From contig CANJII010000021.1 in assembly GCA_947474435.1 (NCBI GenBank), positions 1 to 60,795 on the forward strand: 60,795 nucleotides of DNA, in the 5' to 3' direction. Below the pieces are notes generated by a model. It saw nothing but the letters and a program-made list of their open reading frames with translations. It was not told the DNA's origin and did no database searches. Shown in pieces: positions 53,857 through 56,513 of this stretch. The position numbers and the translations under genes are program-made. The number at the start of each line of letters is the position of its first letter. Within the stretch, counting starts at the first letter, position 1. The DNA is from Chitinophagaceae bacterium. GTDB lineage: Bacteria > Bacteroidota > Bacteroidia > Chitinophagales > UBA10324.

Positions 53857-54156
53857 ATGAACATCAAAATTCATTCAATCCATTTCGATGCTGATTCAAA
53901 ATTGTTGGAATTCATCAATAAGAAATTAAGTCGGATGGAAAATTTTTTCGACAAAATAATCGGAGCCGAAGTTTTTCTGAAACTGGAAGGCAATGGTCAG
54001 GTAAGCGATAAAGTTGCAGAGATAAAAGTCAGTATTCCGGGGAAGGTTTTGTTTTCTGAAGAAACGAGTAAGGCATTTGAAGAATCAGTTGATTCTGCTT
54101 TTGAAAACATACTTCGCCAGATAAAAAGACACAAGGAAAAAGAAACTCACGAATAA
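53857..54156 (+). CDS. hpf: Ribosome hibernation-promoting factor (HPF/RaiA family)
   Basis: A 99-residue short-form HPF/YfiA protein that binds the 30S decoding region and helps form inactive ribosomes in stationary phase. Family marks are IKIHSIHFDADSKLLEFINK, the central EVFLKLEGNGQVSDKVAEIK and the basic C-terminal ILRQIKRHKEKE. It lacks the long C-terminal dimerisation domain. It lies 34 bases after the recombinase gene and before the tRNA cluster. Confidence 0.93.
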   Translation: MNIKIHSIHFDADSKLLEFINKKLSRMENFFDKIIGAEVFLKLEGNGQVSDKVAEIKVSIPGKVLFSEETSKAFEESVDSAFENILRQIKRHKEKETHE

Positions 54157-54163
54157 ATATTCC

Positions 54164-54200
54164 ATTCCACTTTTATATGTAGAGTGGAATATTATATTTG
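54164..54200 (+). promoter_or_regulatory. Inverted repeat and promoter of the tRNA-tuf unit
   Basis: ATTCCACTTT and AGAGTGGAAT form a ten-base-pair inverted repeat (54164-54190, seven-base loop), followed at once by TATATTTG (54193-54200), a perfect TAnnTTTG box. TTTT at 54171 is a possible -33 element. The repeat may be the hpf terminator stem (its T-run is poor) or an operator inside the promoter. Confidence 0.55.
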
Positions 54201-54274
54201 CACACCTTTTTAAATCAGGGATGAGAATTGGTGTGTTCTTTTTCATTTTTCAATCTCAAATTTCATTGGGAAAA

Positions 54275-54348
54275 GCCGATGTAGCTCAGTTGGCCAGAGC
54301 TACTGATTTGTAATCAGTGGGTCGGGGGTTCGAATCCCTCCATCGGCT
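54275..54348 (+). tRNA. tRNA-Thr (TGT)
   Basis: Acceptor GCCGATG/CATCGGC, D arm GCTC/GAGC, anticodon stem ACTGA/TCAGT with loop TTTGTAA, T arm GGGGG/CCCTC with loop TTCGAAT. First of four normal tRNAs upstream of tuf, in the same order as thrU-tyrU-glyT-thrT in E. coli. Confidence 0.95.
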
Positions 54349-54362
54349 CATTGAAATAGGAT

Positions 54363-54445
54363 GGGGAGATTCCAGAGTGGCCAAATGGGGCAGACTGTAA
54401 ATCTGTTGTCTTACGACTTCGAAAGTTCAAATCTTTCTCTCCCCA
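54363..54445 (+). tRNA. tRNA-Tyr (GTA)
   Basis: Acceptor GGGGAGA/TCTCCCC, anticodon loop CTGTAAA, and a long class II variable arm (about 54397-54415). Discriminator A. 14 bases after tRNA-Thr. Confidence 0.95.
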
Positions 54446-54582
54446 CAAATTTATGAGAGAGTAGTTTTTTACTTTTAGTAAATCAGTTCTTTGAAAACGA
54501 AGTGAATAAAATTATTTGCTTCTTTTGAAAAATTAAAAAAAGAAAATCATTCTCGTGATTTCTTTTGGATGAAAATTATCAG

Positions 54583-54655
54583 GCGGGAGTAGCTCAGTTG
54601 GTAGAGCATCAGCCTTCCAAGCTGAGGGTCGCGGGTTCGAGTCTCGTCTCCCGCT
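54583..54655 (+). tRNA. tRNA-Gly (TCC)
   Basis: Acceptor GCGGGAG/CTCCCGC, D arm GCTC/GAGC, anticodon stem CAGCC with loop TTCCAAG, T loop TTCGAGT. It follows a 137-base AT-rich spacer with no other feature. Confidence 0.95.
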
Positions 54656-54667
54656 CTAATTTTTTAA

Positions 54668-54740
54668 GCCAATGTAGCTCAGTTGGTAGAGCACATCCTT
54701 GGTAGGGATGAGGTCACCGGTTCGATTCTGGTCATTGGCT
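54668..54740 (+). tRNA. tRNA-Thr (GGT)
   Basis: Acceptor GCCAATG/CATTGGC, D arm GCTC/GAGC, anticodon stem CATCC/GGATG with loop TTGGTAG, T arm ACCGG/CTGGT with loop TTCGATT. 12 bases after tRNA-Gly. Confidence 0.95.
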
Positions 54741-54762
54741 CATCAGCGAGAAATCGGAAAAT

Positions 54763-54839
54763 GTTAATGTAGCTCAGTGGAAGAGCATACTTAGTTGAAA
54801 GATTAAGAAGGATTGCCGGTTCGAATCCGGTTATTAACG
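54763..54839 (+). ncRNA. tRNA-like element in the tuf leader with aberrant anticodon arm
   Basis: A fifth cloverleaf-like element lies between tRNA-Thr(GGT) and tuf. Intact parts: acceptor GTTAATG (54763-54769) with TATTAAC (54832-54838), D stem GCTC/GAGC (54772-54775 and 54783-54786) with GG in the loop, T stem GCCGG/CCGGT with loop TTCGAAT (54815-54831). Between D and T stems there are 28 bases instead of about 23. The best fold is CTTAGTT/GATTAAG around GAAA, or a five-pair stem with an eight-base loop TTGAAAGA, so there is no standard anticodon loop. The 3' end is GCAA, not CCA. It could be a decayed tRNA, a processing signal, or an EF-Tu-binding mimic. Confidence 0.65.
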
Positions 54840-54897
54840 CAAGGGTAAAACCTTATTAAATTTTTAAAACAATCACAACAATTTAAACAACACAAGC

Positions 54898-56085
54898 ATG
54901 GCAAAAGAAAAATTCGAACGGACCAAACCCCATGTTAACATCGGTACAATCGGGCATGTGGATCACGGTAAAACTACCTTGACTGCCGCTATCACGGAAG
55001 TATTAGCTAACAAAGGACTTGCTCAAAAGCGTTCATACGACTCAATTGACTCAGCACCTGAGGAAAAAGAGAGAGGTATTACTATTAATACAGCGCATGT
55101 TGAGTACGAAACGGCCAATCGCCACTATGCGCATGTGGATTGTCCTGGACACGCCGATTACATTAAGAACATGGTTACTGGTGCCGCCCAAATGGATGGT
55201 GCTATCATTGTAATTGCTGCTACTGATGGACCTATGGCTCAAACCCGTGAACACATTTTACTTGCCCGTCAGGTTGGTGTGCCTTCATTGGTTGTATTCT
55301 TAAATAAATGCGATTTAGTTGACGATCCGGAATTACTTGAATTAGTTGAGATGGAAGTTCGTGAATTGCTTAGCTTCTATAAATTCGATGGCGATAAAAT
55401 CAAAATCATTCGTGGTTCTGCTTTGAAAGCATTGAATAAAGATCCTGAAGGAATTAAAGCCATCGAAGATTTAATGGAAGCAGTTGATACTGAAATTCCA
55501 ATTCCTCCACGGGCCAAAGACAAGCCTTTCTTAATGCCGGTTGAAGATGTGTTCTCGATCACAGGTCGTGGAACCGTAGCTACAGGTCGTATTGAAAGAG
55601 GTTCAATTCACACAGGAGATCCTGTTGAAATTGTTGGTCTCATGGATGCTTCTTTAAAATCAACCGTTACTGGTGTTGAGATGTTTCGTAAAATTCTTGA
55701 CGATGGTGAAGCCGGCGATAATGTTGGTTTGCTTCTTCGTGGAGTTGAAAAGGATGACATTCGTCGTGGTATGGTTGTTTGCGCTCCGGGTTCTATTACT
55801 CCTCACACTGATTTCAAATGTGAAGTGTATGTTCTTTCAAAAGAAGAAGGTGGTCGTCATACTCCATTCTTTAACAAGTATCGTCCGCAGTTCTACATGA
55901 GAACTACTGATGTTACAGGAGAATGTGAATTACCGGCAGGAATTGAAATGGTTATGCCTGGCGATAATGTATCAATCATTGTTAAACTCATTACTCCGGT
56001 AGCTATGGAAAAAGGTCTTCGTTTCGCGATTCGTGAAGGAGGTCGTACTGTAGGTGCTGGTCAGGTGACTGAGGTTATTAAATAA
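54898..56085 (+). CDS. tuf: Elongation factor Tu
   Basis: GTPase that carries aminoacyl-tRNA to the ribosome, 395 residues. G1 [11 protein letters not shown] (about 18-28), switch [17 protein letters not shown]3 [12 protein letters not shown] (about 80-91), G4 NKCDLVDD (about 135-142) and G5 GSALKAL are all intact; the domain II and III beta barrels follow. It belongs to a transcript starting with the four tRNAs and the tRNA-like element. Codon use is strongly biased, as expected for one of the most abundant proteins. A 14-base-pair hairpin stands after it. Confidence 0.98.
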
Positions 56086-56106
56086 TAAAAAATTGAAGTT
56101 TAAATT

Positions 56107-56160
56107 TTCGGGTTTAAAGTTCGAAGTTCATCAAAGCTTCTTACTTTAAACCCGAAGGTT
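56107..56160 (+). terminator. Long hairpin between tuf and tRNA-Trp
   Basis: TTCGGGTTTAAAGT (56107-56120) pairs without mismatch with ACTTTAAACCCGAA (56143-56156), with GAAG/CTTC inside. The following GGTTTTAAT is only a weak T-run. It is either a partial terminator (attenuating secE-nusG-rplK relative to tuf) or an RNase III-type processing site. Confidence 0.55.
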
Positions 56161-56234
56161 TTAATGGGGAGTTGAAATTCCTGAAAAAATTTCTGTAAAA
56201 ACCAACTCATTAAAATTTACATTTGAACTCGAAT

Positions 56235-56307
56235 ACGGGTGTAGCTCAATTGGTAGAGTAGCGGTCTCCAAAACCGTTGGCTGGGAGTTCGAGTCTCTCC
56301 ACCCGTG
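56235..56307 (+). tRNA. tRNA-Trp (CCA)
   Basis: Acceptor ACGGGTG/CACCCGT, D arm GCTC with a GAGT partner, anticodon stem GCGGT/ACCGT with loop CTCCAAA, T loop TTCGAGT, discriminator G. Located between tuf and secE as is usual in this phylum. Confidence 0.95.
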
Positions 56308-56321
56308 CAAACTTTAACATC

Positions 56322-56513
56322 ATGAATAAAGTAAGTTTATACATTAAGGAATCATACTCTGAGTTAATGACTAAAGTGTCGTGGCCTACATGGGATGAGT
56401 TAACCAACAGTGCAATTGTAGTCGCAATTGCCTCACTCATTATGGCGTTATTAGTTTTTGGAATGGATAAAATTTCAACCATTGTTCTCGGAACATTTTA
56501 TAAAGCATTTTAA
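56322..56513 (+). CDS. secE: Protein translocase subunit SecE
   Basis: A 63-residue SecE with one transmembrane helix. The amphipathic segment SYSELMTKVSWPTWDELTNS is the conserved SecE signature, followed by AIVVAIASLIMALLVFGMDK. I choose the ATG at 56322; an in-frame frame running back to 56277 would overlap tRNA-Trp. The nusG ATG follows the SecE stop without a gap. Confidence 0.95.
   Translation: MNKVSLYIKESYSELMTKVSWPTWDELTNSAIVVAIASLIMALLVFGMDKISTIVLGTFYKAF

Follow-up and report, generated by a model that had tools for sequence, protein, structure and literature searches.

Why does the leader of an EF-Tu mRNA contain something shaped like a tRNA? The question is raised by a contig of a Chitinophagaceae bacterium (GenBank assembly GCA_947474435.1, contig CANJII010000021.1, forward strand), of which the whole stretch of 60,795 nucleotides, here called the window, was analysed. 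Four tRNA genes precede tuf, the gene for EF-Tu, and a fifth element, a tRNA-like structure (TLS), lies between the last of them and the tuf start codon. A first-pass annotation of the window had taken this element for a tRNA mimic with a rebuilt anticodon arm and had offered three roles for it: feedback of EF-Tu on its own mRNA, a mark at which RNase P or RNase Z would cut the tuf mRNA away from the tRNAs, or a true tRNA-Phe. Comparison of tuf leaders indicates that the TLS is probably a working part of the tuf message and not a dead tRNA gene. We favour the second role, to which we give about an even chance: the TLS, a non-decoding descendant of tRNA-Thr(GGT), would act in cis as a processing mark on the joint transcript of the tRNAs and tuf, with predicted cleavage by RNase P, RNase Z or both, and would be the bacterial equivalent of the t-elements of plant mitochondria. 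The feedback role fared poorly, and the tRNA-Phe role was refuted by comparison with related genomes.

A tRNA-like structure in the leader of tuf

The four standard tRNAs stand in the enterobacterial order Thr-Tyr-Gly-Thr, as stated earlier and confirmed with ARAGORN (Table 1). The TLS downstream of them is 77 bases long and leaves a gap of 58 bases to the tuf ATG (54898). Every feature of its first description was present: the acceptor, D and T arms are intact, the 28-base region between D and T arms forms a GAAA hairpin, CCA is missing and the distance to the ATG is as given. The acceptor strands GTTAATG and TATTAAC form seven pairs, the seventh of which is G-T. The 28-base region folds into seven pairs capped by GAAA and holds no seven-base anticodon loop with U33, and GCAAGG is found 3' of the TLS in place of an encoded CCA.

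ARAGORN reported the element as an undefined 'tRNA-???' at 54763-54840. The Rfam tRNA model (RF00005) matched 54763-54839 with 43.8 bits, above its gathering score of 29 and the lowest score among the 34 tRNA matches of the genome (33 others). The minimum free energy of the TLS is -19.5 kcal/mol (z -2.07), and 7 of 200 shuffled sequences folded equally well. Within the genus, acceptor pair 7 is T-T in three of the six members, and covariation in the seven-pair GAAA hairpin was weak (four rows; observed score matched in 128 of 500 shuffles).

Conservation and covariation in the family

Sixteen genomes of the window's family (order Chitinophagales) were compared. The tuf leader was readable in 13 of them; G012 gave no match, and the contigs of G009 and G015 stop inside tuf. 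A TLS is present in ten of the 13 leaders, namely in all six members of the genus and in G010 (a sister genus), G006, G013 and G008. ARAGORN overlooked it in G003, G006, G013 and G008, where it was found by eye, and a structural scan picked up all ten. The best single fold predicted by RNAfold is a cloverleaf in eight of the ten. The D-loop GG and the T-loop TC occur in all ten sequences, and the loops of the anticodon region differ in G010, G006, G013 and G008. Counted from the tuf ATG, nine members have the TLS 3' end at -52 to -61 and the tenth has it at -92. In a tree of EF-Tu and NusG, the TLS occurs in both main branches and is missing from the deepest lineage, G007 (support 70); the TLS-less G014 and G011 cluster with G015 (support 74). 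This distribution would fit one gain and one loss. A NusG protein scan of named genomes yielded, among its best 80 matches, three loci with more than 66% identity, apparently repeats of G005, G002 and G010.

Because MAFFT misaligned the distant members when given whole TLSs, a structural alignment was assembled from manually separated arms, with one bulged T of G008 removed before pairing. G006, G013 and G008 have six acceptor and six T-stem pairs, so that the stacked helix still comprises 12 positions (with one bulged base in G008); acceptor pair 7 and its counterpart in these six-plus-six members were dropped, leaving 15 pairs in eight distinct rows of the ten TLSs, from four genera. Ten of the 15 pairs change on both sides, and 99.2% of the cells are paired compared with 79.4% in shuffled alignments (0 of 500 as high). 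Sliding the partners against each other lowered pairing to 30-45%. The acceptor, D and T arms are conserved with compensating changes and the anticodon region is rebuilt, which bears out the earlier claim that only the decoding end had been altered. It had also been argued that absence from close relatives, or stem changes without compensation, would mark the element as a decaying copy; its presence in most readable leaders and the compensation at two thirds of the pairs speak otherwise.

The stems were further compared with those of tRNA-Thr. The TLS of G000 differs by seven substitutions, none of which breaks a pair (mean for random placement 3.97, P 0.003), and that of G010 by eleven with one broken pair (P 0.004). 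The remaining genus members gave P values from 0.003 to 0.03, the seven sequences overall being related and not independent. This null model takes the present tRNA-Thr as the ancestor and uses a transition share of 0.67 chosen by the analyst. Mean pairwise divergence of the TLS in the genus is 0.074 (stems 0.05, anticodon region 0.121). The corresponding values are 0 for tRNA-Gly and tRNA-Thr, 0.021 for the 16 bases following the TLS, 0.053 for the remainder up to the ATG, 0.228 for the Tyr-Gly spacer and 0.326 for the Thr-TLS spacer.

In all ten family members a single C separates the discriminator from a hairpin, the letters of which vary across the four genera (AAGG/CCTT, AAAGGA/TCCTTT, AGGATC/GATCCT and a longer one in G008). 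A hairpin of comparable placement and strength follows tRNA-Thr in 7 of 116 TLS-less leaders, at a limit of -3.4 kcal/mol that was taken from the weakest TLS hairpin and set after the fact. The leader of G008 (L022) may also adopt an alternative fold, as CCCGGTT, ending 9 bases before the TLS, is complementary to AACCGGG in the anticodon region.

The same design in Chitinophaga

Among sixty further leaders of the order, the same TLS design was first met in four genomes of a single genus, Chitinophaga. Together with 60 leaders from a search of the genus, a TLS precedes tuf in 64 of 64 Chitinophaga leaders, and it occurs in the sequenced type strain Chitinophaga pinensis (DSM 2588, leader L294). 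One strict pattern identified 63 of them; L264 was detected by the scan only and is left out of the row counts. Since the same arrangement thus recurs in a second bacterial group, the TLS is probably functional.

The 3' end of the Chitinophaga TLS lies at -67 to -81 from the ATG (n=63), and a place 50-90 bases upstream of the ATG is common to both groups. All 63 sequences share the D stem GCTC/GAGC and the GG of the D loop, and the T loops read TTCAATT, TTCAATC or TTCGATT. Seven acceptor plus five T-stem pairs fit best in 52 sequences and six plus six in 11, the register having been picked for each row by the better pairing, which favours pairing. With this choice, 92.1% of the cells are paired in the 30 distinct Chitinophaga rows (84.7% in shuffles) and nine pairs change on both sides. 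Chitinophaga and the family combined (39 distinct rows) have 93.3% of their cells paired, where shuffles give 78.9% and none of 500 comes as high; both sides have changed in 11 of 16 pairs, a count that one shuffle in 500 reaches.

The anticodon region is hypervariable, with lengths of 19-35 bases and 58 versions among the 63 sequences, each of which can form a hairpin. ARAGORN read these TLSs as Lys, Leu, Ile, Cys, Phe, Tyr, stop or undefined, or did not report them. The Rfam tRNA model, run on 12 of the 64, gave 27.6-46.8 bits, with L206 and L208 slightly below 29. Downstream, GTTTGT begins three bases past the discriminator and can pair with ACAAAC; both occur in 63 of 63 leaders, GTTTGT having been part of the search pattern. 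ACAAAC ends 17-19 bases upstream of the ATG in the eight commonest arrangements. The letters of this stem are nearly invariant in the 63 leaders, and covariation gives it no support.

The changing anticodons that ARAGORN assigns (stop, Lys, Ile, Tyr and others) are a hazard for annotation: Chitinophaga TLSs such as L294 and L305 are called as a tRNA of shifting identity, and automatic annotations may count a false tRNA.

Origin from tRNA-Thr(GGT)

Compared with the other tRNAs of its genome, the TLS of the window scores best against tRNA-Thr(GGT) (26.0), followed by tRNA-Thr(TGT) (19.0). The TLS of G010, scored against the tRNAs of G000 and not its own, also ranks tRNA-Thr(GGT) first (18.5, next 9.5). 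In Chitinophaga, where the comparison took in only tRNAs inside the 400-base leader, a comparable tRNA was available in 61 of the 63 leaders, and in every one of these the local tRNA-Thr(GGT) is the closest match to the TLS. The TLS of the window is most simply read as a tandem copy of the adjoining tRNA-Thr(GGT).

Such a copy probably arose separately in the family and in Chitinophaga, because the inner acceptor pairs follow each group's own tRNA-Thr: they read GTTG in most Chitinophaga, and the six genus members divide evenly into AATT and AATG, with AATG also in G010. Two observations count against two origins. The inner acceptor pairs of G006 and G013 do not follow their own tRNA-Thr, and the leader right after the TLS looks similar by eye in the family and in Chitinophaga (CAAG..TAAAACC).

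tuf leaders in other genomes

A survey of 205 tuf leaders, in which some genomes are present twice, contained 17 TLS-positive rows, all of them in the two groups. The survey scan took in leaders in which 80 or more bases follow the last tRNA; 105 of the 205 fall short of this, and three have no tRNA. Two scan hits outside the two groups, L245 and L263, are unlike the rest and occur at the rate expected by chance (48 of 2300 letter shuffles, or about 1.7 expected among 80 leaders). The structural scan found no match in eight more leaders outside Chitinophaga (L326-L333).

The leader L235 (G107) contains a poorer tRNA-like element at -264 to -190 with a rebuilt anticodon hairpin, which ARAGORN calls undefined and Rfam scores with 34.2 bits. 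Degraded remnants were seen by eye in L331 (Rfam 25.9 bits), L243 (no Rfam match beyond its tRNA-Thr) and L075. Partial or degraded tRNA-like copies, each with a rebuilt anticodon hairpin, lie between tRNA-Thr(GGT) and tuf in L235, L331, L243 and L075, as if they were repeatedly born and decaying there.

The TLS 3' end sits near the position at which the last tRNA ends in other leaders. The median of that end is -60 in 97 leaders chosen for a gap of 40-95 bases (three of them repeating TLS genomes) and -69 when the 13 family TLS rows are set aside and the 189 other leaders counted.

In several TLS-less leaders a different hairpin, CTATGGTCAATGGAC...GTCTGTTGAC, recurs by eye shortly before the tuf ATG and is possibly another structured element. 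Its leaders are L060, L092, L104, L106, L168, L234, L246, L248 and L328, from the f20 members G096, G324, G298, G147 and G184 and four named records (one Chitinophagaceae, one Sediminibacterium).

A predicted processing mark

TAnnTTTG is the -7 promoter pattern of the Bacteroidota type. The + strand has one such site ahead of the tRNA array, at 54193, which is the only one between 52921 and 56218, and another at 56218 in front of tRNA-Trp; none separates the tRNAs from tuf. Because no promoter-like site intervenes, tuf would be transcribed from the promoter of the tRNA array. This weak evidence suggests that tuf is made together with the tRNAs and must be freed from them. Within such a transcript the TLS would fold as a tRNA, with an elbow of D and T loops and a 12-position acceptor-T helix; covariation demonstrates the stems, and the contact at the elbow is presumed. 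RNase P, RNase Z or both may then recognise elbow and helix and cut at the ends of the TLS. The tuf mRNA left by these cuts would begin with about 58 untranslated bases, starting with C and the hairpin, and could be expected to resist decay that depends on a 5' end. An anticodon arm with no decoding duty could take the form of any hairpin, which would explain its hypervariability.

RNase P and RNase Z read the elbow loops, the D stem and the 12-position acceptor-T stack on tRNA precursors, and the anticodon arm is not needed for recognition by either enzyme. We favour a processing mark because the parts that the TLS has kept, elbow loops, D stem and 12-position helix, are these determinants. 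A charged tRNA depends on the parts that were lost, namely the loop for decoding and, in many Chitinophaga members, pairing at the acceptor end. The genome encodes RNase P RNA (208.2 bits), a homologue of RNase Z and RNase E/G (434.2 bits).

Several observations weigh against a processing mark. The upstream tRNA-Thr(GGT) could by itself already free the tuf mRNA. The stem so near the discriminator might lie just past an RNase Z cut, but might equally obstruct the enzyme. The RNase Z homologue of the genome reaches 281.8 bits, below the curated NCBIfam cut-off of 292.95. In Chitinophaga, pairs 1 and 2 of the stack are open in 12 of the 30 distinct rows each and pair 7 in six, and L301, L302, L303 and L320 pair at just four of seven acceptor positions, which is odd for an exactly cut end. 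The TLS is absent from three of the 13 readable family leaders (G014, G011 and G007), and among the other 188 surveyed leaders the 80 that extend far enough past the last tRNA to be scanned show no TLS beyond hits of the chance type. The best RNAfold structures for G010 and G013 are not cloverleaves. Slow change is also seen in the short Gly-Thr spacer, at 0.056 over its aligned positions; its 68% of gaps stem from a single insertion.

The TLS splits the functions of a tRNA in a natural way, with the decoding arm free to vary and the elbow and acceptor-T helix under selection, in the leader of one of the most abundant proteins of the cell. A more far-reaching proposal, which we regard as quite unlikely, makes the TLS a regulatory sensor that evolved on two or more occasions, in the window's family and in Chitinophaga, when tRNA-Thr(GGT) was duplicated next to tuf: it would compete with pre-tRNAs for RNase P and RNase Z, or for another elbow-binding protein, and couple EF-Tu synthesis to the tRNA-processing load. 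If true, EF-Tu and tRNA would be kept in proportion.

Alternative explanations

The TLS and the stem next to it might instead stay uncut on the tuf mRNA as a folded 5' domain that stabilises the message or sets its translation, perhaps with the help of an elbow-binding protein or the ribosome. Such a domain would suit a stem that lies 1-3 bases past the discriminator (in all ten family members, and able to form in 63 of 63 Chitinophaga leaders) and might block RNase Z, the frequently open acceptor pairs 1-2 of Chitinophaga, and a downstream leader conserved at least as well as the TLS within the genus. We nevertheless think it rather unlikely, as a full tRNA elbow with a 12-position helix exceeds the needs of a generic stabiliser, and the RNase P and RNase Z of the host are expected to meet any tRNA-shaped substrate. 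Feedback, in which EF-Tu would attach to the acceptor-T half of the TLS in its own message and lower translation or stability, appears improbable. EF-Tu grips the charged CCA acceptor end and the T stem of a tRNA and does not contact the D arm. The element does stand directly before tuf with its acceptor and T stems maintained by compensation, and tufB of Salmonella is said to be autoregulated, going by the title of a 2016 paper by Brandis. The TLS, however, has no free, charged 3' end, and its pairs 1 and 2 are each open in 12 of 30 Chitinophaga rows, whereas the D stem is invariant; this pattern of conservation argues against feedback because EF-Tu ignores the D arm and needs a charged 3' end. 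Save for the poorer element of L235, no full TLS was found outside the two groups in the sampled tuf leaders. We assign a similarly low probability to a small RNA that, once excised, works in trans, for instance by drawing off an enzyme that binds tRNAs, the position beside tuf only setting its amount. It would account for a tRNA-like fold under constraint that is made in step with EF-Tu, but a hypervariable anticodon arm leaves it only the general elbow that any tRNA offers.

Decay of a functionless tandem copy could explain the clear descent from tRNA-Thr(GGT), the remnants in other genera (L331, L243, L075) and the missing element in G007, G011 and G014. It is very improbable and was rejected on the stem compensation, the few broken pairs and the conservation in both groups: compensatory change lies far above that of shuffles, pairs are broken less often than under random decay (P 0.003-0.03 for each of seven sequences), all 64 Chitinophaga leaders keep the element, and it changes more slowly than the spacer before it. 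Hardly credible, finally, is an odd working tRNA, either a tRNA-Phe with an eight-base loop or one with the four-base anticodon GAAA, even though four of the six genus members give gaaa in ARAGORN and the Rfam tRNA score is 43.8. GAA in the TLS loop is not needed for decoding, because a normal tRNA-Phe(GAA) is encoded elsewhere in the genome (G000:C13). That tRNA, an eight-base loop not kept in the sister genera, and the Chitinophaga anticodons, which change, include a stop or are missing, led us to reject tRNA-Phe on comparative evidence. The four-base version was rejected on the same Chitinophaga readings and on loops that are unlike in the sister genera, which share no common anticodon.

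Comparison with known systems

Bacterial mRNAs, among them those of E. coli his and lac, contain folds resembling tRNAs that RNase P cleaves. A processing mark before tuf would share with these substrates a tRNA-like fold in a messenger; theirs are loose resemblances, whereas the TLS is a true tRNA descendant with covariation. The E. coli thrS operator is a mimic of the tRNA-Thr anticodon arm in an mRNA leader, made for the synthetase. Mimicry of tRNA-Thr in the leader of a translation gene is common to both, but thrS mimics the anticodon arm and the TLS has lost exactly that arm. The mascRNA/MALAT1 tRNA-like element, which is eukaryotic and lies at a 3' end, serves as a processing mark, as is proposed for the TLS. 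The Rfam model of mascRNA (RF01684) had its sole match within 54000-56500 at tRNA-Thr(TGT), with 16.6 bits against a cut-off of 42.5, and did not match the TLS.

The closest comparison is with plant mitochondrial t-elements, described in the available text of the sources as tRNA-homologous, CCA-tailed and cut by RNase P and RNase Z (PMC11658184, PMC8003010), and as defining transcript ends through these enzymes without being aminoacylated (PMC11658184). Like the TLS, t-elements (e.g. 5' of cox1 and 3' of ccmC) have a tRNA-homologous fold that lacks decoding ability; they sit at an mRNA end, as the TLS may do. The TLS differs in that it occurs in free-living bacteria before one gene, tuf, where cleavage is predicted, and in having a rebuilt hairpin for an anticodon arm and a second stem directly downstream. 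The t-element idea would thereby extend from plant mitochondria to free-living bacteria.

The enterobacterial operon thrU-tyrU-glyT-thrT-tufB has the same order of four tRNAs as the window. For Salmonella tufB this Thr-Tyr-Gly-Thr order is given in the available part of PMC6134099, which there mentions no fifth tRNA-like element. No report of such an element before a bacterial tuf was found in the open-access full-text literature, outside which most subscription papers lie. As a kind, tRNA-like processing elements are known from organelles; the tuf setting, the rebuilt arm and the repeated recruitment are apparently new, as far as that literature goes.

Surroundings of the element

Table 1. 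Features of the tRNA-tuf region and parts of the TLS (positions in the window)
Feature	Position	Strand	Basis
Promoter-like -7 element TATATTTG (TAnnTTTG type) upstream of tRNA array	54193..54200	+	pattern scan
tRNA-Thr(TGT)	54275..54349	+	ARAGORN
tRNA-Tyr(GTA)	54363..54446	+	ARAGORN
tRNA-Gly(TCC)	54583..54656	+	ARAGORN
tRNA-Thr(GGT), likely parent of the TLS	54668..54741	+	ARAGORN; best-scoring tRNA of the genome for the TLS
TLS in tuf leader	54763..54839	+	ARAGORN, Rfam, fold, family conservation, covariation
Acceptor stem, 5' strand GTTAATG	54763..54769	+	partner 54832-54838
D arm: GCTC, loop AGTGGAA (contains GG), GAGC	54772..54786	+	letters and fold
Rebuilt anticodon region	54787..54814	+	hairpin CTTAGTT-GAAA-GATTAAG at 54790-54807; fold, weak genus covariation
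T arm: GCCGG, loop TTCGAAT, CCGGT	54815..54831	+	letters and fold
Acceptor stem, 3' strand TATTAAC, and discriminator G	54832..54839	+	letters; predicted RNase Z site after 54839
Hairpin AAGG-GTAAAA-CCTT, beginning one base past discriminator	54841..54854	+	fold; same placement in family
A-rich rest of tuf leader, without predicted structure	54855..54897	+	letters and fold
tuf, EF-Tu, 395 amino acids	54898..56085	+	one match per genome wherever found

A scan for sigma-70 promoters gave a single weak site, at the end of tuf, and was dropped in favour of the TAnnTTTG pattern. A terminator-like hairpin at 54164-54190, directly upstream of the promoter-like TATATTTG, is possibly the transcript end of the upstream gene. 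Over the window (1-60795) TAnnTTTG is scarcer than expected, with 40 occurrences compared with a shuffle mean of 90, as if it were excluded from sites that are not promoters.
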